Of a DNA stretch of 64,000 nucleotides, positions 9,768 through 64,000 are shown piece after piece. The first letter of the stretch is position 1. Each line of letters starts with the position of its first letter. The stretch comes from Sphingomonas sp. SORGH_AS_0950. GTDB lineage: Bacteria; Pseudomonadota; Alphaproteobacteria; Sphingomonadales; Sphingomonadaceae. The stretch spans positions 1,242,501 to 1,306,500 of the forward strand of contig NZ_JAUTAE010000001.1 in the NCBI RefSeq assembly GCF_030818415.1, in the 5' to 3' direction. The position numbers and the translations under genes are program-made. The notes beneath the pieces were generated by a model. That model was not told the DNA's origin. It saw only the letters and a list, made by a program, of their open reading frames with translations, and did not search any database.

Positions 9768-9776
9768 TGCCCCTCG

Positions 9777-9805: not shown

Positions 9806-9809
9806 TATC

Positions 9810-41363: not shown

Positions 41364-41656
41364 CCCGTCAATCGGTTGCATCACCGCCCGGTTCGCGATC
41401 CCCCCAGAAAATGGGTGGACGCCCCCTTCCCGCCTTGCCATGATACCAAAACATACCATGAGAATACCGGCACGCGACAAGCCGGTGGATTGCGGGGGTG
41501 ACGGATGGCGAGAAAGAGCCTGATGCGAGCGGGGACCATGTCCGCCGCCGTCGCGCGTGCCCGCCGCCGGTCCGGCCGGGTCCGGCCTTTTGGTTCCATG
41601 TCCTTTGCCGTGCGGGGCTTGGTCCGCGCACCGATGCAGCTTCCGGGGAAATCGTC
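41364..41656 (+). promoter_or_regulatory. Leader of the mannosidase operon with three helically spaced ATACC words
   Basis: This 293-base gap precedes the glycosidase operon. ATACC occurs at 41443-41447, 41453-41457 and 41464-41468, so at 10 and 11 base spacing on one face of the helix (GGTAT on the other strand). The same word family is seen at the nag promoter (32523-32541). I read it as a candidate site for the GntR regulator. An ATG-initiated frame from 41498 runs in frame into the first gene but lacks signal features, so translation probably begins at 41657. Confidence 0.45.
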
Positions 41657-48191: not shown

Positions 48192-50500
48192 TTTTGACCC
48201 GCCGCTCGCTCCTCGCCGGGACCGCGCTCGCCTCCTTGCCGCTCGATACGCTGGCCGCCCGCGTCGACACCCCGCCCGTTCTGCCGAACCTGTTCATCGG
48301 GACGGGCGGCGACGGCCATACCTATCCGGGTGCGGTCCTGCCCTTCGGCATGGTGCAGCTGAGCCCCGACACCGATGTCGAGCGTTGGGACACCTGCTCG
48401 GGCTATCACCACGGTGACAGCTCGATCATGGGGTTCAGCCACACCCATTTGTCGGGCACCGGGATCGGCGACATGCTGGACGTGCTGGTCGTGCCGACGC
48501 GCGGCGAGCTGAAGCTGGTGCCGGGGCCGCTGTCGGACCCCGATGCGGGCTATCGCCAGCGTTATTCGGACGAACAGGCGCAAGCCGGTTATTACCGCGT
48601 GAAGCTGGAGTCCGGCGTGCTCGCCGAGCTGACCGTGACGGAGCGGACCGGCTGGCACCGCTATACCTATCCCAAGGGGCCGGGCCATGTCCTGGTCGAC
48701 CTTTCGCACCTCGTCCTCGACAAGAGCGACGAGAAGCCGCTGATCACCGATGCCGAGATCACCGTCGAGCCCGACGGCACGATCACCGGCACGCGCCGCG
48801 TGTTCCGCTGGGCCAAGGGGCGGCGCATCTTCTTTGCGATGCAGCTGTCGAAGAAGCCCAGCCGCATCCAGCTTTACGGCGATGGCGACGCGCCCGCGAA
48901 CGGTACCGCCGTCAAGGGCAACCGCCTGAAGGCCGCCTTGTTCTTCGACGAACTGGGAGATGCGCCGCTCCTCATCCGGTGCGGCATCTCGGCGGTCGAT
49001 GTGGCCGGGGCCAAGGCGAACCTGGCGGCCGAGGCCGACCACTGGGATTTCGAGCGCACCCGCAAGGCCGCCGTGGCGCGCTGGTGGGAGAAGAATTCCG
49101 GCATTCATGTCGAAGGCGGCACCAGCGACCAGCAGGTCATCATGGCCTCCGCCAATTACCACACGCTGATCGCGCCCACGCTCTTTTCCGACGTGGACGG
49201 CCGCTATGTCGGGCTGGACGGGCAGGTCCATACCCTGCCCGCCGGGCAGTCCGCCTATAGCACCTACTCCACCTGGGACACGTACCGCGCGCTGCACCCC
49301 TGGCTGATCCTGACTCAGCCCGCCCAGGCCAAGAAGCTGATCGACGACGTCATCCGCCAGACGCAGCAGAGCGCCTATGGCCCGCCGGTCTGGACGCTGC
49401 AGGGCAAGGAGACGGGAATCATGATCGGTTGGCACGGCACGCCGATCATGGCCGAGGCGATGGTGAAGGGCATTCCCGCCGACTATGCCGCCGCCTGGCC
49501 CGGCATCGCCAAGCGCAGCTTCGACTTCGCGGCGCCCGACATGGACAATAGCAAGGGCCGCGACCTGTACGATGCCAAGGGCTATGTCCCCGCCGACATC
49601 TGGTGGGAAAGCGTCAGCCGGACGCAGGAATATGCCTATGACGACTGGGCCGCGTCGCATATCGCGCGGCATGCGGGCAAGACCGCCGAGGCCCAGCGGC
49701 TGCTCAAGCGTTCGGGCAACTGGCGCAACGTCATCGACGGCTCGATCGGCTTTGCCCGCCCGCGCTTCAACGACGGCAGCTGGTGGAAGGATTACGACCC
49801 CATCCAGCTCGGCCATATGCCCAAGCCCTGGTGGCGCGACTATACCGAGGCCAATGGCTGGCAGGCGACGTTCCTGAATCAGCATGACGTGTACGGCCTG
49901 ATCCGCCACATGGGCGGAGATGCAAAGTTCGAGGCCAAGCTGGACGGCCTGTTCAACGCGCCCTCGACCCTGCCCAAGAATGCGCCGCCCGATATTTCGG
50001 GTCTGGTCGGCCAATATGCCCATGGCAACGAGCCCGACCAGCACGCGGCCTACCTGTACGCCTATGTCGGCGCGCCGTGGAAGACGCAGGCGATGGTTCG
50101 CCGCCTGCTGACCGAGATGTACAAGAACGCGCCCGACGGCATCATCGGCAATGACGATTGCGGCCAGATGAGCGCGTGGTTCCTGTTCTCGGCGCTCGGC
50201 TTCTATCCGGTCGATCCGGTCAGCGGCGCCTATGTCCTGGGCAGTCCGCTGTTCGAGCGGGTGCGGCTGTCGCTGGGCGGGACCAGGACGCTGACCGTCG
50301 AGGCGAAGGGCAATCGCCCCGACACGCCCTATGTCCAGTCGGTGACCTGGAACGGCCGCCCCTGGACGAAGAGCTGGATCGACCATGCCACCCTGTCGAA
50401 GGGCGGCACCCTGTCCTTCACCATGGGCGCGCGGCCGAACCGCGCCTTCGGCCGCGATCCGAAGGACCGGCCGCCGTCCTTCGACCACAAGCCCGCCTGA
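48188..50500 (+). CDS. GH92 calcium-dependent alpha-mannosidase, exported
   Basis: The 770-residue protein has a Tat-like signal (LTRRSLLAGTALASLP) and the two GH92 domains: an N-terminal beta-sandwich (NLFIGTGGDGHTYPGAVLPFGMVQLSPD; FSHTHLSGTG) and an alpha/alpha barrel with WDTYRALHPW, YGPPVWTLQGKETGIMIGWHG and NDDCGQMSAWFLFSALGFYPVDP (D656/D657). GH92 enzymes are inverting exo-alpha-mannosidases acting on alpha-1,2, -1,3 or -1,4 linkages in N-glycans. The start ATG overlaps the GH125 stop (ATGA). Linkage is not readable by eye; alpha-1,2 or alpha-1,3 would fit the cluster. Confidence 0.94.
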   Translation: MILTRRSLLAGTALASLPLDTLAARVDTPPVLPNLFIGTGGDGHTYPGAVLPFGMVQLSPDTDVERWDTCSGYHHGDSSIMGFSHTHLSGTGIGDMLDVLVVPTRGELKLVPGPLSDPDAGYRQRYSDEQAQAGYYRVKLESGVLAELTVTERTGWHRYTYPKGPGHVLVDLSHLVLDKSDEKPLITDAEITVEPDGTITGTRRVFRWAKGRRIFFAMQLSKKPSRIQLYGDGDAPANGTAVKGNRLKAALFFDELGDAPLLIRCGISAVDVAGAKANLAAEADHWDFERTRKAAVARWWEKNSGIHVEGGTSDQQVIMASANYHTLIAPTLFSDVDGRYVGLDGQVHTLPAGQSAYSTYSTWDTYRALHPWLILTQPAQAKKLIDDVIRQTQQSAYGPPVWTLQGKETGIMIGWHGTPIMAEAMVKGIPADYAAAWPGIAKRSFDFAAPDMDNSKGRDLYDAKGYVPADIWWESVSRTQEYAYDDWAASHIARHAGKTAEAQRLLKRSGNWRNVIDGSIGFARPRFNDGSWWKDYDPIQLGHMPKPWWRDYTEANGWQATFLNQHDVYGLIRHMGGDAKFEAKLDGLFNAPSTLPKNAPPDISGLVGQYAHGNEPDQHAAYLYAYVGAPWKTQAMVRRLLTEMYKNAPDGIIGNDDCGQMSAWFLFSALGFYPVDPVSGAYVLGSPLFERVRLSLGGTRTLTVEAKGNRPDTPYVQSVTWNGRPWTKSWIDHATLSKGGTLSFTMGARPNRAFGRDPKDRPPSFDHKPA

Positions 50501-50523
50501 TCCCTCCCGGAGATACGTTGAAG

Positions 50524-52434
50524 ATGATCGATTTCTCCCGCCGCGCCGTCCTTGCCTCCGGCCTGGTCGCGTCCGCCACGCCCGCTTTTGCCAAGGCGCG
50601 GGCCGGTGCGCCCGCCCCCTACGGCGCGGTCCCCTCGGCGCGTCAGTGGCGCTGGCACCAGCGCGAGCAATATGCCTTCGTCCACTTCGCCATGAATACC
50701 TTCACCGACAAGGAATGGGGTTACGGCGACGAAGACCCCAAGATGTTCAACCCGTCCGACTTCAGCGCGGACCAGATCGTCGCGGCGGCCAAGGCGGGGA
50801 ACCTCAAGGGCATCATCCTGACGGCCAAGCATCATGACGGCTTCTGCCTGTGGCCGACCAGGCTGACCGAGCATTGCATCCGCAATTCGCCCTACAAGGA
50901 CGGCAAGGGCGATATCGTCCGCGAGATGTCGGATGCGTGCAAGCGCGGCGGGATCGCGTTCGGCATCTATCTCTCGCCCTGGGACCGCAACCGCGCCGAT
51001 TATGGCACCCCCGCCTATATCGACTATTATCGCAAGCAGGTGGTCGAGCTCTGCACCGGTTATGGGGAGCTGTTCGAATTCTGGTTCGACGGCGCGAATG
51101 GCGGCGACGGCTATTATGGCGGCGCGCGCGAGACGCGGCAGATCGATGCCCCCAAATATTACAACTGGCCCTCGATCATCGCGCTGGTCCATCAATATCA
51201 GCCCATGGCGTGCACCTTCGACCCGCTGGGCGCGGACATTCGCTGGGTCGGCAATGAGGACGGCATCGCGGGCGATCCCTGCTGGCCGACCATGCCCGAC
51301 CATCCCTATGTCCAGTCGGAGGGCAATTCGGGCGTGCGCGGCGGCGCGCTGTGGTGGCCCGCCGAGACCAACACCTCGATCCGGCCCGGCTGGTTCTATC
51401 ACGCCGACGAGGATTCCAAGGTCCGATCGCCTGAGAATCTCGTCGGCTATTTCGACACCTCGGTCGCGCGCGGCACCAATATGAACCTGAACCTGCCGCC
51501 CGACCGGCGCGGCCGCATTCCCGATCAGGACGTGAAAATCCTGAAGAGCTTCGGCGATGCGATCCGCGCCAGCTTCGCGACCGACCTCGCGCAAGGGTCG
51601 GTGGCGAGCGCCAGCCATGTGCGCGGCAAGGGGTTCGAGGCGGCCCGCGTCCTCGACGGCGACCGCGAGACCTATTGGTCGGCCCCCGATGGCGTGACCA
51701 CGCCCAGCCTGACGCTCGACCTGCCGCCCGGCCGCAGCTTCGACCTGATCCGCATCCGCGAATATCTGCCGCTCGGCGTGCGGGTCACGCGCTTCGCAGT
51801 CGATGCCGAGGTGAACGGCCAGTGGCAGCAGCTTGCCGAGCATGAGTGCATCAGCGCGCAGCGGATCATCCGCCTGCCCGCCCCGATCACCGCCAAGCGG
51901 GTCCGCCTGCGCATCGTCGACGCGCCGGTCTGCCCGGCGATCAGCGAGGTGTCGCTGTTCCGAAGCGTCGCGCCGGTCCCCGTCCCCGCCATCGTGTCGA
52001 GCGATCCCACGGTGCTGGCGACCACCGACTGGACGATCGTCTCGGCAAGTGCGCCGGGCGCGGAGAAGCTGCTCGACAATGACGCCAAGACCATCTGGAT
52101 CCAGCCCGCGCCGACGCCGGGCAAGCCCGCCAGCGTCACCGTCGACATGGGCCAGGTCCGCGATGTGGCGGGCTTCAGCCTGACGCCGTCGCGCCAGGTG
52201 ATGGTCGATGCCGCCCCGCCGCGCGGCTATGTCGCGGAGACGAGCGTCGACGGCAAGAACTGGACTCCGGCGGGTTCGGGCGAATTCTCCAACATCGCCT
52301 ATGCGCTTTCCACCCAGCGCCTGCCCTTCACCAGCGTCCGGCCGGTCCGCTATCTGCGGCTGAGCTTCGCCGAAATGTCCAAGCCCGCCGCCAATCTGGC
52401 GATTGCGGGGATCGGCGCCTTCACCAAGCGCTGA
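50524..52434 (+). CDS. GH29 alpha-L-fucosidase with C-terminal discoidin-like domains
   Basis: The 636-residue protein has a Tat-type signal (FSRRAVLASGLVASATPAFA), a GH29 barrel (WHQREQYAFVHFAMNTFTDKEWG; LTAKHHDGFCLWPT; nucleophile D189 in FEFWFDGANGG) and two C-terminal beta-sandwich domains (about residues 360-490 and 500-636) that look like F5/8 type C carbohydrate-binding modules. The form is of the alpha-1,3/4 fucosidase subgroup (GH29-B), which fits the alpha-1,3 core fucose of plant N-glycans. The ATG at 50524 has GGAG upstream; a TTG six bases before it is also possible. It is the last gene of the cluster, 23 bases after GH92. Confidence 0.9.
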   Translation: MIDFSRRAVLASGLVASATPAFAKARAGAPAPYGAVPSARQWRWHQREQYAFVHFAMNTFTDKEWGYGDEDPKMFNPSDFSADQIVAAAKAGNLKGIILTAKHHDGFCLWPTRLTEHCIRNSPYKDGKGDIVREMSDACKRGGIAFGIYLSPWDRNRADYGTPAYIDYYRKQVVELCTGYGELFEFWFDGANGGDGYYGGARETRQIDAPKYYNWPSIIALVHQYQPMACTFDPLGADIRWVGNEDGIAGDPCWPTMPDHPYVQSEGNSGVRGGALWWPAETNTSIRPGWFYHADEDSKVRSPENLVGYFDTSVARGTNMNLNLPPDRRGRIPDQDVKILKSFGDAIRASFATDLAQGSVASASHVRGKGFEAARVLDGDRETYWSAPDGVTTPSLTLDLPPGRSFDLIRIREYLPLGVRVTRFAVDAEVNGQWQQLAEHECISAQRIIRLPAPITAKRVRLRIVDAPVCPAISEVSLFRSVAPVPVPAIVSSDPTVLATTDWTIVSASAPGAEKLLDNDAKTIWIQPAPTPGKPASVTVDMGQVRDVAGFSLTPSRQVMVDAAPPRGYVAETSVDGKNWTPAGSGEFSNIAYALSTQRLPFTSVRPVRYLRLSFAEMSKPAANLAIAGIGAFTKR

Positions 52435-53325: not shown

Positions 53326-53460
53326 CGACCATAATATAGATATATATCAAGATCGGCACCGGGCCGCATCGCCCTGTGAAAATTAGCTTATGTTTCCATC
53401 ATCGTTCTGGGAGCCAAACAAAATATCCGACGTTGTCCCTCTATAACGAAAGGGGCGAGC
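53326..53460 (+). promoter_or_regulatory. AT-rich leader of the glycosyltransferase cluster
   Basis: This 135-base gap is markedly AT-rich (ATAATATAGATATATATCAA at 53332-53351) in a GC-rich window. It leads to the TTG start at 53461 with GAAAGGGGCGAGC before it. A TATAAC hexamer lies at 53440-53445. It is the only place in 53.3-60.4 kb with room for a promoter, so the six coupled genes are probably transcribed from here. Confidence 0.45.
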
Positions 53461-55476
53461 TTGATCATTGTTCATCTGGCGCTTGGCGGGTGCCTGAAAT
53501 CGCCACCTGTCCATTATGGTATCACCGCCGATACGGGCGGCCATATTGCCTATATTCTTGATGCCGCCGCCGCGCAGGCCGACAATATTGATACGCATCA
53601 AGTTTCGATCGTCACCCGGCTGTTCGAGGGCGAAGGTCTGGCCGTCGAGCATGGCCTGTCGAGCGAACGCCTGTCGCCCCGCCTGACCATCGACCGGATC
53701 GCGACCGCCAATCGCGGCTATCTGGAAAAGGAAGCGCTGGCCGAAGACTTGTCCGCCTTTACCGAGGCATTCTGCGCGCACCTGGCGCGGCTGCCCCGGC
53801 TTCCCGACGTCATCCATGCGCATTTCTCCGACGCCGCCGCCGTCGCGGCCGAGGCTCGCCGCCGCTTCGCCATTCCCTTCGTCTATACCCCGCACGCGCT
53901 GGGCATCGACAAGCAGACGCATCAGGGCTCCTGCCCCGCGCTCGATGCCCGTATCGCCGCCGAGCGGACCGCGATCGCCGGGGCAGATGCGATCATCGTG
54001 TCGACCCGCGACGAGGCCGATCGGCAGGTCCATGCCTATGACACGCCCGTCTCGGGGCGCATCCACTGCATCCCGCCCGGCGTGCCCAGCCGCGACCCGC
54101 GGCCATCGTCGCAGCCGTCGCTGGCCGCGCGGCTGGACCAGTGGCTCGACGATCCGGCCAAGCCGATCGTGCTCGCCATCGCCCGGCCGGTCGCCAAGAA
54201 GAACCTCGCCGCGCTGGCCCGCGCCTATGCCGCCTCTCCCAAGCTCCAGCGCGCGGCCAATCTGGTCATCCTGGCCGGGCAGCATGACGGCCCCGGCTCG
54301 GCCGAGGAACGCGCGGTCCTCGCGGAGTTGCAGGCGCTGGTCGAGGCACCCGGCTTGCGCGGTCATGTCGCGCTGCCGCCCGCGCATGACGGACATGATG
54401 TCGCCGCGCTGTACGACCGCGCCGCGCAAGGGGGCGTCTTCGTCAATCCCGCGCTGCACGAACCCTTCGGGCTGACCCTGATCGAGGCCGCCGCCGCCGG
54501 CGTGCCGGTGGTCGCGACCCGGCATGGGGGCCCCAGCGAGATCGTCGCCCATCTGGGCCATGGCCTGCTGGTCGATCCGCGTGACGAGGCGGCCATCGCC
54601 GAAACCTGCCTGTCGATCATCGCCAACCCCGAACGCCATGCCGCGATGAGCCGCGCGGGACGCGAGGGCGCGGCGCGCTATGACTGGGGCCGCTATGCGG
54701 CGGAGTCGGTCGCGCTCTATGCCCGCCTGCCGCGCGCGCCGGGGCTGCTCGCCAGCGACATCGATCACACGCTGACCGGCTGTCCGGCGGGGGCACACGG
54801 CTTTGCCCAGTGGCGACAGGGCAGCGACCTGCCCTTCGTCGTCGCCACGGGGCGCTCCTTCGCGATGGCGCGGATGATCCTGTCGCAATGGGGCCTGCCC
54901 GAACCCGACGCCTTCATCACCGATGTCGGCACCCGCATCATGCTGAAGGGGCAGCGCGGGTGGCAGGAATGCCCGGTCTATGCCGCGCGGCTGGACGAGG
55001 GGTGGAACCGCAAGGCGGTGGCGACCGCGCTCAAGCCGCTGCGCCTGCGCCCGCAACCGCGCGACACGGCGGGGCCGCACAAGATCAGCTTCTTCGGCAC
55101 CGCCGAGGATGCCGCGCGGGTCCGCGCCGTCCTGTCCGAACAGGGGCTGGCCGCCAAGGTCGTCTATTCGCACGGACGGCTGATCGACGTGCTGGCACCG
55201 CTGGGCGGCAAGGCGGCGGCGGTCGCGGCCTATGCGCGGCGACTGGACCTGCCGGTCGGCGCCTGCATCGCGGCGGGCGACAGCGGCAACGATGTCGACA
55301 TGCTGGAGGCGTGCGGCCATGCCATCGTCGTCGGCAATGCCAGCGACGAGCTGGACGGGCTGGCCCCGCGCGACGGGCTGCTGCGCGTCGCCGGGCATCA
55401 CGCCAATGGCGTGCTGGAAGGGCTGGAGCGACTGGGGCTGACCGAGCCGATGCTGATGCGTGCGAGCGCGGCGTGA
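53461..55476 (+). CDS. Sucrose-phosphate-synthase-like GT4 fused to a HAD phosphatase
   Basis: The 671-residue protein joins two parts. The GT4 part (about 1-430) has the sucrose-phosphate-synthase hallmarks TADTGGHIAYIL near residue 22 and HALGIDKQTHQG near 148, and the retaining E334-x7-E342 motif (EPFGLTLIEA). The HAD part (about 430-671) has DIDHTLTG (D433, D435) and GDSGNDVDML near 606, as in sucrose-phosphate phosphatases. The natural reading is sugar-phosphate transfer followed by dephosphorylation, giving sucrose or a related non-reducing glycoside. It starts at TTG 53461 after AAAGGGG. It heads a cluster of six overlapping genes. True sucrose synthesis is inference; fructose-6-P specificity cannot be seen. 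Confidence 0.85.
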   Translation: MIIVHLALGGCLKSPPVHYGITADTGGHIAYILDAAAAQADNIDTHQVSIVTRLFEGEGLAVEHGLSSERLSPRLTIDRIATANRGYLEKEALAEDLSAFTEAFCAHLARLPRLPDVIHAHFSDAAAVAAEARRRFAIPFVYTPHALGIDKQTHQGSCPALDARIAAERTAIAGADAIIVSTRDEADRQVHAYDTPVSGRIHCIPPGVPSRDPRPSSQPSLAARLDQWLDDPAKPIVLAIARPVAKKNLAALARAYAASPKLQRAANLVILAGQHDGPGSAEERAVLAELQALVEAPGLRGHVALPPAHDGHDVAALYDRAAQGGVFVNPALHEPFGLTLIEAAAAGVPVVATRHGGPSEIVAHLGHGLLVDPRDEAAIAETCLSIIANPERHAAMSRAGREGAARYDWGRYAAESVALYARLPRAPGLLASDIDHTLTGCPAGAHGFAQWRQGSDLPFVVATGRSFAMARMILSQWGLPEPDAFITDVGTRIMLKGQRGWQECPVYAARLDEGWNRKAVATALKPLRLRPQPRDTAGPHKISFFGTAEDAARVRAVLSEQGLAAKVVYSHGRLIDVLAPLGGKAAAVAAYARRLDLPVGACIAAGDSGNDVDMLEACGHAIVVGNASDELDGLAPRDGLLRVAGHHANGVLEGLERLGLTEPMLMRASAA

Positions 55477-56618
55477 TGCGGCCCTTCGGTTATTTCGTCC
55501 ATCATCAGGGGCGCGGCCATGCCGAACGCTGCGCCGCCATCCTGAACGCACTGCCACCCGAACGTCCGGTCACGATCTTCTGCGCGCGCGACGACATCTT
55601 CCCGCCGCTCCCCCCGCAGGTCGAGCTGATCGTCATCCCCTCGCTGTTCGAGCCGACGGGGGCCGAGGCGGGCACGATGGATGCGGTCCCGACGCCCGAG
55701 ACGCTGCATTGCGCGCCGCTCGGCTGGCCGGGAATCCGCCATGCCATGGCGGTGATCGCGGGCTGGTTCGACCGCGCCGACCCCGCGCTGATGATCTGCG
55801 ACGTGTCGGCGGAGATCGCGCAGCTCTCGCGCATCTGCTCGGTGCCGCATGTGAAGATCCTCCAGCATGGCGACCGGGGCGATGCGGGGCACCGCGCGGC
55901 CTATGACGGCGCGGCGGGGCTGCTGGCGGCGTTCGACGAGGCGCTGGCCCAGCCCGAATGGGACGACGCGATGCTGGCCAAGACCTGTTTCGCGGGTGGC
56001 CTGGGCGTCGACACCCGCGTGCCCGAGCGCGAACTGGCGCGCCAGCGGATCGGCGTCGGCGCGGAGGAGGAGGTCATCCTCGTCCTCTCCGGCGGCGGCG
56101 GCGGCGGCTTCGCGCAGGCCCCGCTGGGCGTCGGCGCGCGCAGCCGTCCGGGCGCGCGCTGGATCACCATCGGCCCGGTCGTGCGCGACTGGCACGCGAC
56201 AGAGCCCGGCAATATCGAGCATCGCGGCTGGGTCGACAATCCGGCCGACCATGTCGCCGCAGCCGACTTGGTCATCGCCTCGACCGGCAACACCACCTGC
56301 CAGCAGATCCTGGCCGCTGCCCGCCCCTGGCTCGCCATTCCCGAATGGCGCTATTTCGACGAGCAGCATCGGAAGGCCGAGGCGCTGGCGGCGGCGGGGG
56401 CGGCATGCGTCCGCCCGCATCTGCCCTCCTCGGCCCAGGCCTGGACCGCGGCGCTGGCCGAGACGCGCGCCACCCACCGCCCCGCGCTCCAGCGCGCGAT
56501 GATCGCCGACACGCCCGCCCAGGACGCCGCCGACTGGCTGGAAGCGCTCGCCGCGCGGCTCTGGCCGGTCGAACTCCACCCCTCCTCCACCCCCACCCCC
56601 AGCGGAGCCCATTCATGA
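55476..56618 (+). CDS. GT-B glycosyltransferase (MurG/GT28-like)
   Basis: The 380-residue protein has an N-terminal GYFVHHQGRGHAERC segment (like the glycine-rich loop of MurG-type enzymes) and a C-terminal nucleotide-sugar region with SGGGGGGFAQAPLG and ASTGNTTCQQILAAARPWLAIPEW. It lacks membrane segments. ATG 55476 lies in a TGATG overlap with the synthase stop and its own stop overlaps the next gene (ATGA). Donor and acceptor are unknown; it likely adds the next sugar to the product of the preceding enzyme. Confidence 0.78.
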   Translation: MRPFGYFVHHQGRGHAERCAAILNALPPERPVTIFCARDDIFPPLPPQVELIVIPSLFEPTGAEAGTMDAVPTPETLHCAPLGWPGIRHAMAVIAGWFDRADPALMICDVSAEIAQLSRICSVPHVKILQHGDRGDAGHRAAYDGAAGLLAAFDEALAQPEWDDAMLAKTCFAGGLGVDTRVPERELARQRIGVGAEEEVILVLSGGGGGGFAQAPLGVGARSRPGARWITIGPVVRDWHATEPGNIEHRGWVDNPADHVAAADLVIASTGNTTCQQILAAARPWLAIPEWRYFDEQHRKAEALAAAGAACVRPHLPSSAQAWTAALAETRATHRPALQRAMIADTPAQDAADWLEALAARLWPVELHPSSTPTPSGAHS

Positions 56619-57529
56619 TCTCGGTCGTCACGCTTGCCGGGGGCCGCCCCGATCATCTCCGCAATGTCGTCCTCGGCCTCAGCCGCCAGACGACCATGCC
56701 AGCCGAACTGATCGTCGCGGTCATCCAGGACGCGCCCTATGACTTACCGGATGCGCCCTTTCCCATTCGCCAGATGATGGTGTCGGGTCCGCACCTGCCG
56801 CTCGCCTCCGCGCGCAACGCGGCGGCCAAGGCATGCGTCGGCGACAAGATCGTCTTCCTCGATATGGACTGCATTCCGACGCCCGAGCTGCTGGCCGATT
56901 ACGACCGCTGCCTCGATGAGATGGATGGGCTGTTGATGGGCGAGGTGATGTATCTGCCCGGCGGCGCGACTGAGGGCGACTGGCGCTATAAGGACTTCGC
57001 GACGGTGGCGGTCCGCCACTCCGACCGGCGAGGGCCCCCGCCCGAGGGGATCGAGCGCTGCGCCGATTATCGGTGCTTCTGGTCACTCAACTTCGCGATG
57101 CGCCGCGCGACCTTCCTCGCGACCGGCGGCTTCGACGAACGCTATGCGGGCTATGGCGGCGAGGACACCGATTTCGGCAAGGTGGTGGACAAGGCGGGCG
57201 TCCCGATCGCCTGGATCAAGGGCGGGCTCGCCTATCACCAATATCATCCGCACCACATGCCGCCGGTCCACCATATCGACAGCGTGGTGCGCAATGCCGA
57301 GCTGTTCGAGGCGAAATGGGGCTATCGCACCATGGGGCACTGGCTGCACGCCTTTCGCCTGATGGGGCTGATCGACGACACGCCCGGCCGCCCGATCCGC
57401 ATCCTGCGCCGTCCCGACAAGGACGACCTCGCCCTGACCGGGCAGCAGAGCCACCAGCCCTATGCCAATACCGCCAGCGTCATCCGCCTGCTGGAGGAGC
57501 GCGCCGCCGGGTCCCGCGTCGCGGCATGA
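56615..57529 (+). CDS. GT2-like glycosyltransferase (galactosyltransferase C-terminal type)
   Basis: The 304-residue GT-A enzyme has an N-terminal nucleotide-binding fold with a DMD motif (VFLDMDCIPTP) and a C-terminal segment GGFDERYAGYGGEDTDFG, which is the GWGxED-type catalytic region of the chondroitin/galactosyl-transferase C-terminal family. It is soluble. ATGA overlaps link it to both neighbours. It should be an inverting transferase; the sugar is unknown. Confidence 0.82.
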   Translation: MISVVTLAGGRPDHLRNVVLGLSRQTTMPAELIVAVIQDAPYDLPDAPFPIRQMMVSGPHLPLASARNAAAKACVGDKIVFLDMDCIPTPELLADYDRCLDEMDGLLMGEVMYLPGGATEGDWRYKDFATVAVRHSDRRGPPPEGIERCADYRCFWSLNFAMRRATFLATGGFDERYAGYGGEDTDFGKVVDKAGVPIAWIKGGLAYHQYHPHHMPPVHHIDSVVRNAELFEAKWGYRTMGHWLHAFRLMGLIDDTPGRPIRILRRPDKDDLALTGQQSHQPYANTASVIRLLEERAAGSRVAA

Positions 57530-58602
57530 GGATCGCGCTGCTCGCCCATGTCCGCCAGCCGATCCGCCAACCCTTTCTCGGCGGCATGGAGGCGCATGGC
57601 TGGTATCTGGCGGAGGGGCTGGCGGCCCGCGGGCATGAGGTGGTGCTGTTCGCCAGCGGCGACAGCGACCCGCGCTTCACGCTCGATCCGGTGCTGCCCG
57701 TCCATTACGAGGCGGTGTTCCCCTGGGCCGAGCATCGCGGCAAGCCCGAGCTGATCGCGCATGTCGATGCCGGTTACGCCGCTGCCTGCGACCGGATCGC
57801 GCGCGGCGGGTTCGACGTGGTGCACAATAACAGCCTGCACCGCTTCCCGCTGGAGCCGCGCCGCACCGCCGCAACGCCGACCGTGACCTCGCTGCACGTG
57901 CCGCCCTATGACGCGCTCCATTATTTCGTCACCGCCAGCCCAGGCCCGACCCACAGGCTGACCGTCACTTCAGCGCGCCAGCTCGCCGCCTGGTGGCCGC
58001 AGGGGGCACCGCCCGAAGCCTCGGTCCTGCACAACGCCATCGATCCCGCCGCCTGGCCCTTCGTGGCGCAGGGCAATGGCGAGGCGGTGTGGTGCGGCCG
58101 GATCACCCCCAATAAGGGCCCGCATCTGGCCGCGCTCGCCGCGCGTAAGGCGGGCATCCCCCTCACCCTGTTCGGCGCCATCGAAGACCCGGATTATTGG
58201 GGGGCGGCGGTCGAGCCCCTGCTCGGCGACGGCATCCGCTATGGCGGGCATCTCGACGGCCCCGCGCTGGCGCGGGAAATCGGGCGGGCCTCGGTCTTCC
58301 TCTTCACCCCCTGTTGGGACGAGCCCTTCGGCCTGGTCGCCATCGAGGCCATGGCCTGCGGCCTGCCCGTCGCCGCCTTTGACGAAGGCGCGGCGGCCGA
58401 AGTCGTCGGCGAGGCGGGGTGCCTGGCCCCGGCGGGCGATGTGGAGGCGCTCGCCCGCGCGATCGACACGGCCAGGGCCATTCCGCGCACGGTCGCCCGC
58501 CACCGGGTCGAGACCCATTTCGCCCGCGACCGCTGGCTCGATCGGTGCGAGGCGCTCTATGCGGAGGTCTGCGCCGGCGCGCGCGTGACGCGCGCCGCAT
58601 GA
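57526..58602 (+). CDS. GT4 glycosyltransferase
   Basis: The 358-residue GT-B protein has RIALLAHVRQPIRQPFLGGMEAH at the start (GGME acceptor-side loop), a linker VWCGRITPNKGPHLAALAA and a donor site with FTPCWDEPFGLVAIEAMACGLP (E-x7-E). It is a retaining GT4 enzyme without membrane segments. Start ATG 57526 overlaps the preceding stop (ATGA), as does its stop with the following gene. Donor unknown. Confidence 0.88.
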   Translation: MRIALLAHVRQPIRQPFLGGMEAHGWYLAEGLAARGHEVVLFASGDSDPRFTLDPVLPVHYEAVFPWAEHRGKPELIAHVDAGYAAACDRIARGGFDVVHNNSLHRFPLEPRRTAATPTVTSLHVPPYDALHYFVTASPGPTHRLTVTSARQLAAWWPQGAPPEASVLHNAIDPAAWPFVAQGNGEAVWCGRITPNKGPHLAALAARKAGIPLTLFGAIEDPDYWGAAVEPLLGDGIRYGGHLDGPALAREIGRASVFLFTPCWDEPFGLVAIEAMACGLPVAAFDEGAAAEVVGEAGCLAPAGDVEALARAIDTARAIPRTVARHRVETHFARDRWLDRCEALYAEVCAGARVTRAA

Positions 58603-59522
58603 GCGAGGACGTCATCGCCCGGCAGCAGGCGGCGTTGCGCGACCTGTACCGCCACCATGTCGCGCCCGGCGAGCCCTATGCGCTGGTCGACTTTCCCGAC
58701 CATCCCAATGTCGGCGACAGCGCGATCTGGCTGGGCGAGATCGCCATGCTCCATGCGGTCGGCGCGGGCGATCCGGCCTATAGGTCGCACTGGGACGATT
58801 TCGATGCGGCCGCCTTCGTCGCGGCCTGCCCGATCGGGCCGATCCTGATCCATGGCGGCGGCAATCTGGGCGATATCTGGCCGCACCATCAGCATTTCCG
58901 CGAAAGCCTGATCCGCGATTTTCCCGATCGCCGCATCGTCCAGCTGCCCCAGTCGATCCATTTCCGCGATCCCGCCCATCGCGACCGTTTCGCCGCGCTG
59001 GTCGCCGGGCATGGCGACTTCCATCTTCATGTCCGCGATGCCGCCAGCCTGGAACTGGCGCGGCGGCATTTCGACTGTCCGGTCGCATTGTCCCCCGACT
59101 CCGCCTTCGGGCTCGGACCGCTGCCGCGCCCCCGCACGCCCGACTGCCATAGCCTGATGCTGTTGCGGACCGATGCCGAACGCGCCGCGCGGGACGACCG
59201 GCTGTTGCGGCAAAGCCCGGATGCGGTGGCGCTGGACTGGCTGGACGAGACGCCCCCGACCGAGGCCGACTTCACCGCACGGGCGCGGGCGCGGGTGGAG
59301 CGCGGGCTCCGCCTGTTGTCGCGCGGGGAGCAGGTCGTCACCGACCGGCTGCACGGTCATATCCTGGCGCTGCTCCTCGGGCTGCCGCATGTCGTGCTCG
59401 ACAATGACTATGGCAAGGTCGCCGCCTATATCGGCGCATGGACCCATGGTTCGCCGCTGGTTCGTCAGGCCGCCACCCCGGACGAGGCGATGGCGCTGAT
59501 CGGCGCGGCGATGATGGCATGA
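58599..59522 (+). CDS. Polysaccharide pyruvyl transferase family protein
   Basis: The 307-residue protein shows the family motifs DHPNVGDSAIWLGE near the start, ILIHGGGNLGDIWPHH, IVQLPQSIHF and TDRLHGHILALLLGLPHVVLDNDYGK. Members transfer a pyruvate ketal from phosphoenolpyruvate to a sugar in surface polysaccharides; others have related transferase roles. It sits between glycosyltransferase genes with ATGA overlaps on both sides, so it probably decorates the same glycoside. Pyruvylation is inferred from family. Confidence 0.85.
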   Translation: MSEDVIARQQAALRDLYRHHVAPGEPYALVDFPDHPNVGDSAIWLGEIAMLHAVGAGDPAYRSHWDDFDAAAFVAACPIGPILIHGGGNLGDIWPHHQHFRESLIRDFPDRRIVQLPQSIHFRDPAHRDRFAALVAGHGDFHLHVRDAASLELARRHFDCPVALSPDSAFGLGPLPRPRTPDCHSLMLLRTDAERAARDDRLLRQSPDAVALDWLDETPPTEADFTARARARVERGLRLLSRGEQVVTDRLHGHILALLLGLPHVVLDNDYGKVAAYIGAWTHGSPLVRQAATPDEAMALIGAAMMA

Positions 59523-60427
59523 TCGACGTCAGCCTGCTGATCTGCACGCGCAATCGCCGCGACAGCCTGTCCGCCACGCTCGCCTCGATCGCGAGGGCAG
59601 CGGGGCCCGCGCGGCTGGAGGTGATCGTGGTCGACAACGGGTCCACCGACGACAGCGCCGCGATGGTCCGGCACTGGGTCGCCGAACAGGCTTTTGCGGT
59701 CCGACTGCTGGTCGAACCCCGCGCCGGGCTCGCGCGGGCGCGCAACGTCGCGATGGCGGCCGCGCGGGGGCGGATCATCGCGATGACCGATGACGACTGC
59801 GTGCTTCATGCCGACTATTTCCGGCGGCTGGCCGACGCCTTTGCGCGCCATCCCGGCCCGGTCATCATCGGCGGGCGTATCCTGCTGGGCGATCCGTCCG
59901 ACCTGCCGGTCACGGTCAAGCTGGAGGACCATCCGATGATCGCGGGCCGCGATGCCTTTCCCGGCGGCTTCGTGATGGGCGCCAACCTGGCCTTCACCGC
60001 AGACATCCGCGAGAAGGTCGGCGCGTTCGACGAGCGGTTCGGCGCGGGCGCCCCCTTTCGCGCGGCCGAGGATACCGATTTCCTGTTCCGCGCGCTGGGG
60101 CGGGATATTCCGGTGCTGTACGATCCCGGTTTCGTCGTGGACCATCATCACGGCCGGAAAGCCGCGCACGAGGTGGTCGCGCTGCTGGCGGGCTATGGCT
60201 ATGGCGACGGGGCGCTGTACGCCAAACATCTGTGGCGGGATGCCCGGATCGCCCGCACGATCCGCGACGACCTGCGCAACCTGGCGACGCGGTTCGCCGG
60301 GCCCGTCCCGCAGATCCGACATTTCCACGCCTTTCGCCTGCGCCATATCCTCGCAGGCTTTGCCCGCTATGGCCGCGAGGCGATCAGAAGTCGGCGCTCA
60401 GGCGCAACCCCATCGTCTGCGGCCTGA
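59519..60427 (+). CDS. GT2 glycosyltransferase, last gene of the cluster
   Basis: The 302-residue GT-A enzyme has LLICTRNRRDSLSATLASI, VIVVDNGSTDDS, the metal-binding MTDDDCVL and GAFDERFGAGAPFRAAEDTDF (catalytic ED). It has no membrane helix. Its ATG overlaps the preceding stop (ATGA). Its last 44 bases overlap, in opposite direction, the 3' end of the FecA-type receptor gene. It probably completes the oligosaccharide built by the upstream enzymes. Confidence 0.9.
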   Translation: MIDVSLLICTRNRRDSLSATLASIARAAGPARLEVIVVDNGSTDDSAAMVRHWVAEQAFAVRLLVEPRAGLARARNVAMAAARGRIIAMTDDDCVLHADYFRRLADAFARHPGPVIIGGRILLGDPSDLPVTVKLEDHPMIAGRDAFPGGFVMGANLAFTADIREKVGAFDERFGAGAPFRAAEDTDFLFRALGRDIPVLYDPGFVVDHHHGRKAAHEVVALLAGYGYGDGALYAKHLWRDARIARTIRDDLRNLATRFAGPVPQIRHFHAFRLRHILAGFARYGREAIRSRRSGATPSSAA

Positions 60428-62777
60428 CCGGGGTCGAGACATTGTGCCGCCCGAGCAGGATCGGGTTGCCAAAGGCGAAGCGGTTGCCGCGCTCGTCGAG
60501 CAGATTGTCGACCGTCAGCGCCAGCGCATAGCGACCATGGCGCGCGGTCAGCCCGGCATCGACGACGCCATATCCCCCCTGCCGCACGTCGAGCATGTCG
60601 CCCACCCCCAGCACGGAGGGACCGACAAAGGCCGCATCGACCCGCCCCGACAGCATCAGCTCCGGCGCCACCCGCAGGTCGCGGATCACCCCCAGCCGCG
60701 CCGATATGCTGGGCGTTTCCGGCAGCCGCCGGTTGCGCGCCCGGCTGAGCATCGCGGTCGATCCCGTCACCCGGTTGTCGGTCAGGAACAGGGCGGCGTT
60801 GATATGCCAGTCCTGTTGCGGCACCCAGTCGGCCCAGCCCTCCAGCGCGTCGATCCGTGCATCGCCGATATTGCTGGTCGCGGGCTGGCCGCCGCGCCCC
60901 AACAGATCGGCCTGGATCGATCGCCAATTGGCGCGCGACACGCTGACCGAGGCGGACAGGCCGGTATCGCCGCGTCGGAGATGGCGCAGGCCCAGCTCGA
61001 CCATCGCGATCGAATCGGGGTCGAAATTGGCGACCCGCCCGACCCCCGCCGCCACGGCCAGACCGCCGGTGCGGAAACCCGATTGATAGCGGCCGAACAG
61101 GGTCCAGTCGCCGCCCGGCTGCCAGGTGAAGCCCAGGGTCGGATCGACACGCGCGGTCGACCGCCCCCGGACATATTGGCCGTTGCGCGGCGTGATCGAC
61201 GGCTCGCCATCGACCCGCGCAAGGGTGACGCGCCCGCCCAGCGTCACCCAGAGCGCCCGTGTCACCGGATGTGTCGCCTCGCCGAAGATCGCGCCGCTGC
61301 GGGTGACGTTGGTCACGCCGATCACCGGCCGCACACCCTGGCGAATGGTCAGCGAGCGCCCCATCACCGACTGGTCCGACACCAGGTTGATGCCGACCAC
61401 CCAGGATCCCCCGCCGGGCAGGCGCCGCGACAAACGGCTTTCGTGCGAGAACAGTGCCTTGTCGCTCGACAGCTGATAGGATTCGACCGCCCCCACCGCG
61501 CTGGCGTCGAAATTTTCGAACGACGCGCCGTCCACCAGCCCGGTGGCGGAGACGAATTGCAGCCCGCTCGCCCAATCCTTCGACAGGAGGATACGGCCGA
61601 AGCTCATGTCGCTCCAGGACGGTTGCGGAATCGCGGCACGCGTGACCAGCGAGTCCTCGTGCGTCACATATTGCGCGTCGCGCGCGACGATCGACTGGGC
61701 GCCGCCGCCCAGCTCCACCCGCCAGCCGTCGCCGGGGGCCAGGCGCAGCGTCGCGCGGCCGCCATTGGTCAGCACCCGGTTGATGTCGGTCCGTTTCGTG
61801 CGGCTATTGTCGATATAGCCGCCCGTCACCCCGCGATAGCCGACGACGCGCAGTCCCAGCGTCTGCGGGATCGCCACCAGATTGGCGACCAGGGCCATAT
61901 CCGCACTGGGTGCGCCATGCGCGGTCAGGGCACCGCCGATCTCGACATGCCCGCCGTCGCGATCGAGCGACACCGGGTTGGAGGTCAGCCGGATGATGCC
62001 GCCGATCGCCCCCGACCCGTGCAGCGCGCCTTGCGGCCCCTCGGCGACCTCGACCGTGCCGATGTCATAGAGTTTCAGCCCCGGATCGGGCCCGGCAAAG
62101 GCGATCTGGACATCGTCCAGATACAGGCTGGCGGTCGACTCGGTCGCGCCGTTGAAGCTGCTGTCGGCAATGCCCCGGATGAACAGCTTGTTGCGCCCCG
62201 GCCCCAGCGCGGTCGTCTGGAGGATCGGGGTCTGCGCCGCCACGTCGCTGAGGTTGATCGAGCCGGCGGGCAGGGTGACACCGCGCCCGACCACCGAGAC
62301 GCTGCCCGGATAGCGGGCCAGCGCCGTGCCCTGTTTGCTGGCGGTGACGATGATGTCCTGTCCGTTGGTCGCGGGGGGAGGGACGGGTTTGGGATGCGCG
62401 ATCTTCGCCGGTCGCGGGATACGTGGCGCCCCGACGATCCGGAAACTGGTCGGATCGATCGCCACCGCGCGATAGCCGGTGCCCCGCAACAGCCGGTCGA
62501 GCGCGCGGGCGGGGGTGGCGGTGAGATGGAGCGTCGCGGTGCGGACGCGGTTCAGCCGGTCATCGGTCGCGACGATCGTGATCCCGGCCTGTCGCGCCAG
62601 TTCGCGCAGCGCGAAATCCAGCGTCGCGGGAGCCAGCACGATCCGGCGCGGGGCGGTCGTCGCACCGCCATAGTCCTGCGGCTGAGCGCGGGCGGCGGCG
62701 GGCATGGCAAGGGCCGCCAGGGCCATCAGGCCATGGTCAGCGATTCCCCTCCGACGCCCGCAAAATCCAATTCCCAC
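60384..62777 (-). CDS. FecA-type TonB-dependent receptor with signalling domain
   Basis: The 797-residue protein has an export signal (LMALAALAMPAAARA) followed by a secretin/TonB N-terminal signalling domain (residues about 40-112, LDFALRELARQAGITIVA), a TonB box region (DIIVTASKQGT), plug (LFIRGIADSSFNG) and barrel ending in MGLRLSADF. The N-terminal signalling domain with adjacent fecR and fecI genes marks a transducing receptor for a ferric siderophore or similar ligand. The GTG at 62777 gives an Arg-containing n-region and overlaps fecR; an ATG at 62726 gives a very short signal. Ligand unknown. Confidence 0.88.
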   Translation of the reverse strand: MGIGFCGRRRGIADHGLMALAALAMPAAARAQPQDYGGATTAPRRIVLAPATLDFALRELARQAGITIVATDDRLNRVRTATLHLTATPARALDRLLRGTGYRAVAIDPTSFRIVGAPRIPRPAKIAHPKPVPPPATNGQDIIVTASKQGTALARYPGSVSVVGRGVTLPAGSINLSDVAAQTPILQTTALGPGRNKLFIRGIADSSFNGATESTASLYLDDVQIAFAGPDPGLKLYDIGTVEVAEGPQGALHGSGAIGGIIRLTSNPVSLDRDGGHVEIGGALTAHGAPSADMALVANLVAIPQTLGLRVVGYRGVTGGYIDNSRTKRTDINRVLTNGGRATLRLAPGDGWRVELGGGAQSIVARDAQYVTHEDSLVTRAAIPQPSWSDMSFGRILLSKDWASGLQFVSATGLVDGASFENFDASAVGAVESYQLSSDKALFSHESRLSRRLPGGGSWVVGINLVSDQSVMGRSLTIRQGVRPVIGVTNVTRSGAIFGEATHPVTRALWVTLGGRVTLARVDGEPSITPRNGQYVRGRSTARVDPTLGFTWQPGGDWTLFGRYQSGFRTGGLAVAAGVGRVANFDPDSIAMVELGLRHLRRGDTGLSASVSVSRANWRSIQADLLGRGGQPATSNIGDARIDALEGWADWVPQQDWHINAALFLTDNRVTGSTAMLSRARNRRLPETPSISARLGVIRDLRVAPELMLSGRVDAAFVGPSVLGVGDMLDVRQGGYGVVDAGLTARHGRYALALTVDNLLDERGNRFAFGNPILLGRHNVSTPVRPQTMGLRLSADF

Positions 62778-63726
62778 CGCTTTGGCGCCACTCCGCTCCG
62801 ATCAGCTTCGCCAGCCGCGGAACATCCCGATCGGCATCGCCCGTCATCCGGATCACCCCGGTGACGTTGCGATCGCTCAGGGGCCCCTCCACCGCGATGC
62901 GCACGCCATAGGCCGATTGCAATCGTCCGGCAATCGCCCCCACCGACTCGCGATCGAAATCGAATGTACCGCCGCGCCAGTCGCCGACCTGGGCCGGATC
63001 GACTCGCGTCAGGCGCAGGCTATGCGCGGCTTCGTCCAGGCTGGCCCCCTGCCCGGCCGCCAGCGCGATCCGCTGGCCCTTCGGCGCCAGCGACACCGCG
63101 CCTTCGGCGACCGACACATCCAGCCGCGCACCCGTGCGGCGGACATCGAAGACGGTCCCGACATCCTGGATCGTGACGTCGCCCGAACGCAGCTCGAAGG
63201 GGGCCGACGGATCGTGGCGGACGCGGAACAGCGCCTGCCCGGTTTCCAGTGTAGCGACGCGCGGATCGTTCCGGTCGAAGCGAAGACGCGATCCCCCCGC
63301 CATCTCCACCGTCGTTCCGTCGTTCAGCGCGATGCTGCGATGCTCGCCCGGCGCGGTCTGCTCGATCCGGATATCGGGCCGCGCGGTCATCAGCATCGGC
63401 CCCGCGACCAGCGCAACCGCCGCCGCGACGCCGCCCATCAGCCACCAGCGCCCCCAGCCCCCATTGTCGTTGGCGGCCGCCGGTGCATATTCGATCTCCA
63501 CGATCGGCTCGGCCAGGACTGGCTCGGGCAGGACCGGCGCGGGCACGGGCGCGACCGGCTCGGCCATGGCGGGCGCGGTCAGCACATGGTCCGCCATCGC
63601 CACCGCGTCATAGGCGCGCGCATTGGCCGGGCTTTCCTCCAGCCATTGGGCAAAGGCTTCCCAATCGGCCGCGTCCATCGTGCGCTGCCGGATGTGCCAA
63701 TCGATCGCCTGTTCGTCCCGCGTCAC
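62737..63726 (-). CDS. FecR-type anti-sigma factor / signal transducer
   Basis: The 329-residue protein has a cytoplasmic N-terminal helical domain (IDWHIRQRTMDAADWEAFAQWLEE, DUF4880 type), a Pro/Ala/Val linker, one membrane segment (about residues 92-112, WWLMGGVAAAVALVAGPML), a FecR beta domain in the periplasm and a C-terminal segment of the DUF4974 type. It would hold or activate the sigma factor in the cytoplasm and contact the receptor signalling domain. ATGA overlaps the sigma-factor gene; its end overlaps the receptor gene start. Confidence 0.93.
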   Translation of the reverse strand: MTRDEQAIDWHIRQRTMDAADWEAFAQWLEESPANARAYDAVAMADHVLTAPAMAEPVAPVPAPVLPEPVLAEPIVEIEYAPAAANDNGGWGRWWLMGGVAAAVALVAGPMLMTARPDIRIEQTAPGEHRSIALNDGTTVEMAGGSRLRFDRNDPRVATLETGQALFRVRHDPSAPFELRSGDVTIQDVGTVFDVRRTGARLDVSVAEGAVSLAPKGQRIALAAGQGASLDEAAHSLRLTRVDPAQVGDWRGGTFDFDRESVGAIAGRLQSAYGVRIAVEGPLSDRNVTGVIRMTGDADRDVPRLAKLIGAEWRQSGGNWILRASEGNR

Positions 63727-64000
63727 GCCCCCCTGCTCCCTTCACCGTGTTGACGACACCGGCTCAACCGATCCGCACCCCCGTCACGATTTTCCTGCAA
63801 ATAATGATAGGCCCGCCGCAGCAGCTTCTCGACCGCGCTGATCGTCACCCCCATCCGCTCGGCGATGACGCGCTGCGGCTGTTCCTCGAAGCGGAACAGG
63901 ATGAAGGCCTCGCGCATCCGGTCGGGCATGGCCGCGATCAAGGCATGCGCCCGCGCCAGTTCGTCGCGCGCGCCGACGATCCGTTCGGGATCGGCATATT
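63723..64000 (-). CDS. ECF sigma factor, FecI type (partial, N-terminus outside window)
   Basis: The visible 91 C-terminal residues contain sigma region 4 (ALIAAMPDRMREAFILFRFE; then RVIAERMGVTISAVEKLLRRA, the -35-binding helix-turn-helix). The frame continues past the right edge, so the N-terminal half is not seen. It is coupled to fecR by an ATGA overlap. It should direct RNA polymerase to the receptor operon when iron signalling is on. Confidence 0.92.
   Translation of the reverse strand, partial: YADPERIVGARDELARAHALIAAMPDRMREAFILFRFEEQPQRVIAERMGVTISAVEKLLRRAYHYLQENRDGGADRLSRCRQHGEGSRGA

Follow-up and report, generated by a model that had tools for sequence, protein, structure and literature searches.

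Sucrose-phosphate synthases (SPSs) and sucrose-phosphate phosphatases (SPPs) are the closest known counterparts of the enzyme encoded by the first gene of the operon considered here. An SPS relative, the mannosylfructose-phosphate synthase of Agrobacterium, acts with a phosphatase partner to make a non-reducing disaccharide osmolyte, the whole system consisting of two genes. In gene content, exopolysaccharide loci of the Wzx/Wzy type also come close, combining, as this operon does, several glycosyltransferases with a pyruvyl transferase. The general stress response of Alphaproteobacteria, in which the operon is placed below, is known mainly through its regulators.

The window, a stretch of 64,000 nucleotides from Sphingomonas sp. 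SORGH_AS_0950, contains six genes, A to F, at 53461–60427, all on the forward strand (Table 1). To our knowledge, no product of an operon of this type is known, and no description of such a cluster or its product was found in the part of the literature covered; PMC10040529, considered as a possible account of one, is unrelated in the portion available. A and B overlap by 1 base and the other four junctions by 4 bases each, so the coordinates bear out the six overlapping genes reported in an earlier note; its further claim that they are made in fixed ratio cannot be deduced from the overlaps. By hydropathy, none of the six proteins has a clear membrane segment, as the same note had it, D having one marginal stretch of 19 residues (mean 1.68). 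With a probability of roughly one half, A–F constitutes a stress-induced cytosolic pathway for a soluble hetero-oligosaccharide, capped with pyruvate here and perhaps with sulfate elsewhere.

Table 1. Positions in the window of the operon genes and of the candidate promoter site
Feature	Position	Strand	Remarks
EcfG-like promoter site GGAGC-N16-CGTT	53410..53434	+	51 bases upstream of A; candidate, sequence-based
A: SPS-like GT4 glycosyltransferase fused to sucrose-phosphatase-type HAD phosphatase, 671 aa, TTG start	53461..55476	+	
B: GT-B glycosyltransferase, GT28/GT1-like, 380 aa	55476..56618	+	Pfam and predicted model
C: GT-A glycosyltransferase, galactosyltransferase-related, 304 aa	56615..57529	+	Pfam and predicted model
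D: GT4 glycosyltransferase, 358 aa	57526..58602	+	Pfam
E: Pvg1-like pyruvyl (ketal) transferase, accessory, 307 aa	58599..59522	+	PF04230
F: GT2 glycosyltransferase, accessory, 302 aa	59519..60427	+	Pfam; always accompanies E

The order of the genes is not a matter of chance, given that the exact A–F order on a single strand, sought in other genomes as the earlier note had proposed, recurs in 34 of 108 stretches, and that A, B, C, and D occur together in 94 of the 101 A-bearing stretches among the 107 related ones compared. The conserved unit is thus a four-gene core, A–D, to which E and F are an accessory pair, and the description as a six-gene cluster holds for the genes present in the window and not for what is conserved. 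F is found in all 34 stretches with E and in none without it, and the pair is confined to one clade. A sulfotransferase gene lies beside the core in 22 of the 101 A-bearing stretches, never together with E/F (34/101), and 45 of the 101 have neither; since this distribution tracks clades, it reflects few events. Both the core and the sulfotransferase that takes the place of E/F in other clades were overlooked in the earlier reading. Upstream genes for glycan degradation were dropped as members of the system, as the ORFs flanking the core vary from clade to clade. A is present in 107 of the 295 genomes of the genus examined, and the module also occurs in Loktanella, Paracoccus, and Pontibrevibacter.

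A combines a GT4 domain with a sucrose-phosphatase (S6PP) domain in Pfam, has SPS/SPP as its top NCBIfam and PDB matches, and shares the two-domain logic of the H. orenii SPS (2r60), the T. elongatus SPS (6kih), and the Synechocystis SPP (1s2o); proteins of this type are currently named either 'sucrose-phosphate synthase' or 'HAD family hydrolase' in the sources. The catalytic His and Glu of SPS, together with the basic residues binding UDP and the acceptor phosphate, whose roles are given in the available text of PMC7264703, are kept in all 110 core rows (one basic position being K in 106 rows and R in 4), and the phosphatase (HAD) motifs are intact. Unlike SPS/SPP, however, A adjoins B, C, and D in those 94 stretches, scores well below the curated cut-offs (313.2 vs 576 bits for TIGR02472 and 123.6 vs 209.75 bits for TIGR02471), and in 110 of 110 core rows carries GGH, with His for Gln, in the loop that reads GGQ at the fructose-6-phosphate site of SPS, whereas this Gln, which would correspond to Gln51 of TeSPS, is retained in 31 of 31 SPS-like rows of Flavobacterium, in one Pirellulaceae row, and in HoSPS. 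The change on the acceptor side means that A may use an acceptor other than fructose 6-phosphate and, together with the low scores, gives no support to sucrose, one of the products considered in the earlier note. That A is nevertheless a true sucrose-phosphate synthase/phosphatase, so that the cell makes sucrose and B–D build oligosaccharides on it, glucosyl- or galactosyl-sucrose for example, is rather unlikely but deserves the most weight among the alternatives, as it accounts for the top matches and for the retained catalytic, UDP- and phosphate-binding, and phosphatase residues; on the other side, in addition to the scores and the invariant His, no sucrose-use gene stood out among the recurring neighbors of the 22 loci listed. 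This reading can overlap with that of a soluble oligosaccharide. By description only, A may also be likened to the mannosylfructose enzymes of Agrobacterium, which make a disaccharide from two genes, whereas A is a fused enzyme accompanied by B, C, and D and by the capping genes.

The enzymes downstream of A belong to diverse glycosyltransferase families. B matches the GT28 C-terminal domain of Pfam just above the cut-off (23.1 vs 22 bits), and its predicted model (mean pLDDT 87.7) is structurally closest to CalG, OleD, and UGTs, with MurG, an enzyme whose substrate is a lipid-linked sugar, also among the matches and weakly similar in sequence. C is assigned to GT2/Glyco_transf_7C, with D83, D85, and E183 unchanged across 16 sequences, and its model (mean pLDDT 93.1) best matches the chondroitin polymerase K4CP and GalNAc-transferases. 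The best solved chains for D are 7fg9 ('Glycosyl transferase') and 5zer, a tetrahydrobiopterin glucosyltransferase, while PimA, a lipid mannosyltransferase, matches less well; the named best relative of D works on a soluble acceptor. F is a GT2 enzyme according to Pfam.

E is predicted to be a Pvg1-like pyruvyl transferase of the PF04230 family (PS_pyruv_trans, 108.9 bits against a cut-off of 25.3). Pvg1 of S. pombe is described in the available text of PMC4872226 as a Golgi galactoside pyruvyl transferase with the galactose of glycoproteins as substrate. Residues 3–291 of E align with its structure (5ax7, E=6.6e-47), and its proposed catalytic residues, D106, R217, and R337, mapped onto E by hand from the alignment, are present in each of the 35 rows compared, two of which come from the window. 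In contrast to Pvg1, a Golgi enzyme acting on glycoproteins, E is bacterial, lacks a membrane segment, and is encoded in a stress operon. For the sulfotransferase of other clades, a role in the carotenoid sulfate of Erythrobacter was considered and dropped, as this would require none of A–D.

The earlier note argued that this is not ordinary exopolysaccharide synthesis and named a linked flippase or polymerase in homologous clusters as the finding that would speak against its view. The argument is upheld, as no conserved flippase or polymerase was found near the core in the 107 stretches, where 58 multi-membrane ORFs, not identified singly, are spread over 42 stretches with the largest family reaching only 6. 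In this respect the operon differs from Wzx/Wzy loci, and in its own genome the initiating-transferase and flippase families are far off, the nearest PF02397 gene lying more than 0.4 Mb away and the nearest PF01943 gene more than 1 Mb. Likewise, none of the annotated plasmid tables examined, which are incomplete, contains a flippase, polymerase, exporter, or initiating transferase. Transporters do occur near single loci, namely an AI-2E-family gene adjoining D in L246 and TolC/RND genes in L250.

Cytosolic transferases often assemble lipid-linked glycans whose flippase is encoded elsewhere. A second alternative is a glycan assembled on a lipid of the membrane or on a carrier lipid, in the form of either a glycolipid made under stress or an envelope glycan that a transporter encoded far away would flip. 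It would suit the sequence similarity of B to MurG and of D to PimA, the frequency of GT2 enzymes such as C and F in envelope-glycan loci, the presence of flippase-family and initiating-transferase genes elsewhere in the genome, the transporters in L246 and L250, and the annotation of the E orthologue of Sphingomonas melonis as an 'exopolysaccharide biosynthesis protein' (available part of PMC6599016). Nonetheless, it is judged unlikely in view of the proteins without clear membrane segments, the lack of a conserved multi-membrane neighbor in 107 stretches, the intact sugar-phosphatase of A, and the occurrence of the module in Loktanella and Paracoccus, which are not known to have a sphingolipid envelope of the Sphingomonas type. 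Should such a glycan be made, A would produce a precursor disaccharide or act on a phosphorylated lipid head. Assembly of the Sphingomonas glycosphingolipid GSL-4A, whose tetrasaccharide would suit four transferases, was set aside, given the module in Loktanella, Paracoccus, and Pontibrevibacter and the sugar-phosphatase in A. Least probable is a glycan linked to a protein or metabolite, such as a glycosylated stress protein or a small aglycone: although the model of B is nearest to natural-product glycosyltransferases (CalG, OleD, and plant UGTs) and the best named relatives of D glucosylate tetrahydrobiopterin, no aglycone gene stood out among the recurring neighbors of the 22 loci listed, and a first enzyme of the sugar-phosphate type would not be needed.

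The preferred reading, a soluble stress-induced oligosaccharide, draws on the EcfG regulon of S. melonis Fr1. In the available part of PMC6599016, #3506–#3509 stand in the table of top EcfG-dependent genes, dropping 10- to 20-fold when EcfG, the stress sigma factor, is missing (log2 −3.3 to −4.3), and the promoter fusion of #3505 is EcfG-dependent, this gene being classed as a putative indirect target; this part lists the genes and tests the #3505 reporter, with no function proposed. The four strings of 24–25 bases printed there for #3506–#3509 translate into peptides of A–D (identity 7/8, 6/7, 5/8, and 5/7 residues, respectively), lie 86, 54, 394, and 174 bases ahead of the next start in the window vs 92, 51, 400, and 171 in the paper, and are found, with 1, 2, 1, and 0 mismatches, in the A–F operon of a near relative. 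By these matches, #3506–#3509 are the predicted orthologues of B–E, and #3505 is that of A, given its place in the gene order and the location of the #3506 string within A, so that #3505–#3509 equate to A–E. When two of the Fr1 strings were searched by exact match, they were absent from 194 loci, the near relative being matched later with mismatches; a hit with 2 mismatches at L199 (genome G739), which carries no module, is a chance match and was left out of the counts.

The region upstream of A bears on whether this control is direct. Scored with a matrix built from 25 published EcfG sites, of which the weakest reaches 10.5 bits, the site in the window falls below that level at 9.7 bits; it is one base off GGAAC-N16-CGTT, and in GGAGC the deviating base disrupts AAC, a triplet that Sphingopyxis EcfG promoters keep almost without exception (3 of 79 deviate; PMC7083833). 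In Sphingomonas relatives, the position of the site is kept while the spacer has diverged. Two loci, L035 and L129, have a perfect site. Of 100 homologous regions upstream of A, 81 contain an EcfG-like site of at least 7 bits, compared with 6.7% of random 80-base windows and with 23–30% of control windows from the same regions, taken as best of four; at 8 bits, sites are found upstream of A in 78/101 cases, B in 6/99, C in 4/102, E in 1/34, and F in 0/34. A scan of the genome itself for GGARC-N16/17-CGTT gave 83 matches vs 160 for the reversed control and is uninformative; the promoter argument rests solely on conservation across orthologues. Stricter promoter patterns, which fitted 15 of 55 upstream regions, were superseded by the matrix. 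Retention of such sites ahead of A speaks for direct control by EcfG, where the S. melonis authors, in the part available, consider #3505 a putative indirect target. Taken with the EcfG dependence known from the S. melonis Fr1 orthologues, A–F would belong to the general stress response of the cell, and the stress role suggested in the earlier note gains in strength.

Under stress, EcfG would drive the operon, probably from the candidate site in Table 1. Judging from its residues, A would catalyze a reaction of the SPS type, transferring a hexose from a nucleotide sugar onto a sugar phosphate, and the fused phosphatase domain would strip the phosphate, making the step irreversible. B, C, and D would then attach further sugars and F another, and E, by analogy with Pvg1, may use phosphoenolpyruvate (PEP) to place a pyruvate ketal on a residue resembling galactose as a cap; in some clades without E/F, the sulfotransferase would provide another acidic cap. 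The product is probably an intracellular sugar chain, small and negatively charged, and would be soluble; as no conserved exporter accompanies the operon, it would stay in the cell as a protectant or reserve. A more tentative proposal, somewhat doubtful as it stands, is that these chains form a new class of stress protectants in Alphaproteobacteria, with about five or six sugars, a GGH-type SPS-like starting enzyme carrying its own phosphatase, induction through the general stress response, and an acidic cap swapped between pyruvate ketal and sulfate in the course of evolution.

Orthologues of B–E rank among the most strongly EcfG-dependent genes of a model plant-associated bacterium, S. melonis Fr1, in the available part of PMC6599016. 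Identification of the product would put a name to an effector of the general stress response in Alphaproteobacteria, define a new group of SPS-like enzymes, and show whether the acidic cap, be it pyruvate or sulfate, contributes to survival of drying or salt.

All six genes, A to F, named in the earlier note are present, as tabulated below. A and B overlap by 1 base and the other four junctions by 4 bases each; the fixed ratio that had been read into these overlaps does not follow from them. TTG is the apparent start of A (53461 in the window) in 25/34 loci of the E/F type and 8/22 of the sulfotransferase type, with starts in homologues guessed near the aligned first residue, and so weak a start codon on the operon's first gene may restrict the translation of A. 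By hydropathy, A–F have no membrane segment apart from one marginal stretch in D. The host genome is a Sphingomonas, and among named relatives, A is closest to those of S. paucimobilis and its kin (80–84%).

Genes of the operon and their families
Gene	Position	Family	Source
A	53461–55476	GT4 + S6PP phosphatase	Pfam
B	second gene	GT28-like (weak match)	Pfam
C	third gene	GT2/7C	Pfam
D	fourth gene	GT4	Pfam
E	fifth gene	PS_pyruv_trans	Pfam
F	59519–60427	GT2	Pfam

Within the genus, 107 of 295 genomes contain a match to A (E ≤ 1e-80). B is matched in 35/296 genomes of the order and 4/385 of the class (E ≤ 1e-30; both sets sampled evenly); in four of the 35 the match is a remote relative of B (<250 bits) whose cluster lacks A. 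Across 108 stretches compared (the window, L021–L040, L126–L164 and L198–L245, some being the same gene in duplicate), only L199 has no module within the stretch. A is present in 101 of the 107 that bear the module, and A, B, C and D stand together in 94 of these, the remaining seven having no B or D inside the stretch. E and F always occur as a pair, in 34 stretches, each with an A at least 60% identical. A relative of the Sulfotransfer_3 (Pfam name) genes of L035 and L037 lies near the core in 22 stretches, none with E/F, and 18 of the 22 also carry Crp-type regulators. Neither is found in 45 stretches, and the ORFs flanking core-only loci vary from locus to locus (13 listed). In a tree of A built by a quick method (102 rows), a 39-row clade contains all E/F rows, and two Loktanella rows with the sulfotransferase are sister to it (support 99), which is compatible with a single gain of E/F and several losses. 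The distribution of E/F versus sulfotransferase is therefore clade-bound, with few events.

In L160 5399–12569 (genome G322) the set is doubled as D A C B C D, and the second copies of C and D share 77% and 74% identity with those of the window. Among L246–L251, plasmids or large secondary replicons carry the module in Paracoccus, Pontibrevibacter, Croceicoccus and S. parapaucimobilis, which suggests transfer; a Methylobacterium replicon there has a match known from A alone. The Paracoccus yeei annotation puts a single glycosyltransferase next to A.

ORFs with at least seven hydrophobic segments, counted on segments alone, number 58 within 6 kb of the core, in 42/107 stretches, and their largest family spans six stretches of one subclade. 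Sought in this way, no exporter is conserved near the core across the 107 stretches, and the earlier view that this is not ordinary exopolysaccharide synthesis holds. Similarly, no flippase or polymerase is among the annotated neighbours in the partial gene tables of Paracoccus, Pontibrevibacter, Croceicoccus and S. parapaucimobilis; they do place an AI-2E-family gene next to D in Paracoccus and TolC/RND genes close to the core in Croceicoccus. Within the window's own genome, the closest PF02397 gene lies >0.4 Mb away and the closest PF01943 gene >1 Mb.

A aligns with structures of sucrose-phosphate synthase (SPS) and phosphatase. Its catalytic, UDP-phosphate, acceptor-phosphate and phosphatase residues, with SPS roles as given in the accessible part of PMC7264703, are kept in 110 core rows, one position being K or R. 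A differs from SPS in the GGQ loop, whose Gln is replaced by His in 110/110 core rows and retained in 31/31 Flavobacterium SPS-like rows, and it falls short of curated SPS family cut-offs; these two features argue that A belongs to a distinct subfamily, in whose predicted reaction the acceptor would be a sugar phosphate, not surely fructose 6-phosphate. Sucrose, as first proposed, does not follow; chemistry truly based on sucrose is doubtful, and could overlap with a soluble capped oligosaccharide.

The model of B (pLDDT 87.7) has a GT-B fold, with CalG, OleD and UGTs, and also MurG, as best matches (TM ~0.6), and that of C (pLDDT 93.1) a GT-A fold closest to chondroitin polymerase and GalNAc-transferases (TM ~0.5), its profile weakly matching beta-1,4-galactosyltransferase. 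Among solved structures, D comes closest to an unnamed glycosyltransferase (7fg9) and to tetrahydrobiopterin glucosyltransferases, and it matches the lipid mannosyltransferase PimA less well. A lipid-linked glycan is a rather unlikely product. E is clearly Pvg1-like by sequence and retains in 35/35 rows the catalytic residues proposed for Pvg1 in the accessible part of PMC4872226.

A related cluster without A (L155 6238–12651, L156 6236–12541, also L157, L158 and L161) comprises genes for C-like, NodS-type methyltransferase, PIG-L deacetylase, B-like, GT2 and D-like proteins (Pfam on L156 only, which also has an acyl-CoA-dehydrogenase-like protein below its Pfam cut-off), with a Crp-type gene nearby in L155 and L157; it looks like a putative second modified-oligosaccharide pathway with B, C and D in common. 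Within the window, a TonB-dependent receptor, an alpha-amylase-family gene and a GH97 gene (7002–16838) form an apparent starch-type utilisation locus. Glycan-degradation genes at 41498–52434 (GH2 mannosidase-like, GH3, GH125, then further ORFs, in the place taken by GH92 and alpha-L-fucosidase genes in S. parapaucimobilis) probably serve N-glycan use unrelated to the operon. On the minus strand, genes for a TonB receptor and FecR follow (60384–63998), then a sigma-factor gene cut off by the window end, judging from the S. parapaucimobilis counterpart. The 3' ends of the receptor gene and F overlap tail to tail over 44 bases, and a receptor >60% identical adjoins A–F in nine further stretches (L022–L029, L127).

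According to the accessible part of PMC6599016, S. melonis Fr1 #3506–#3509 are overlapping genes for glycosyltransferases and an 'exopolysaccharide biosynthesis protein', and loss of the general-stress sigma factor EcfG lowers their transcripts by log2 3.3, 3.4, 3.7 and 4.3. The #3505 promoter fusion is EcfG-dependent, and its authors class #3505 as a putative indirect target. Translated, the published motif strings of #3506–#3509 are peptides inside the window's A, B, C and D, at 86, 54, 394 and 174 from the next start (92, 51, 400 and 171 in S. melonis); the same strings lie inside the A–F operon of the closest genome found (G706, L198) with 1, 2, 1 and 0 mismatches. These positions equate #3506–#3509 with B–E and the preceding #3505 with A. 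The stress role proposed for the cluster is thus upheld by the EcfG dependence of the orthologous operon.

Upstream of A by 51 bases lies GGAGC-N16-CGTT (53410–53434). The EcfG consensus is GGAAC-N16-CGTT, and its AAC triplet is almost invariant (3/79 exceptions in the accessible part of PMC7083833), which counts against the window's GGAGC. On a matrix of 25 published sites, it scores 9.7 bits, the weakest of the 25 scoring 10.5. Sites of at least 7 bits lie at -95 to -15 of A in 81/100 upstream regions (E/F, 32/33; core-only of the E/F clade, 5/7; sulfotransferase, 12/22; others, 32/38), compared with 23–30% for the highest-scoring of four 80-base windows taken elsewhere in these regions and 6.7% for random ones; many rows are related, so the counts are not independent trials. 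At 8 bits or more within 100 bases upstream, the counts are A 78/101, D 20/97 (often divergent), Crp genes 13/40, sulfotransferases 4/22, B 6/99, C 4/102, E 1/34 and F 0/34. The spacers between promoter elements have diverged, and L129 and Loktanella L035 have the perfect consensus before A. EcfG control would, on these counts, be direct.

One or two Crp/HTH_Crp_2 regulators adjoin the core in L037 (15293–17697) and similar loci, and a GGAAC-type site lies ~43 bases before the first Crp gene in L037, L131, L132, L135 and L136, which suggests a stress relay. The Crp gene has an 8-bit site and A has none in the first four of these; both have one in L136, and neither in L036, L038, L130, L137, L148–L150, L152 and others. 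NepR is present in 10/10 genomes tested, a weak point, given how widespread the system is in the class.

The promoter evidence bears only on direct versus indirect EcfG control and leaves the odds on the product unchanged. A soluble capped oligosaccharide has roughly an even chance (about 0.5) of being that product: B, C, D and F would extend it in a presumed order, pyruvate and, in other clades, sulfate may cap it, and it would stay within the cell in a protective role.
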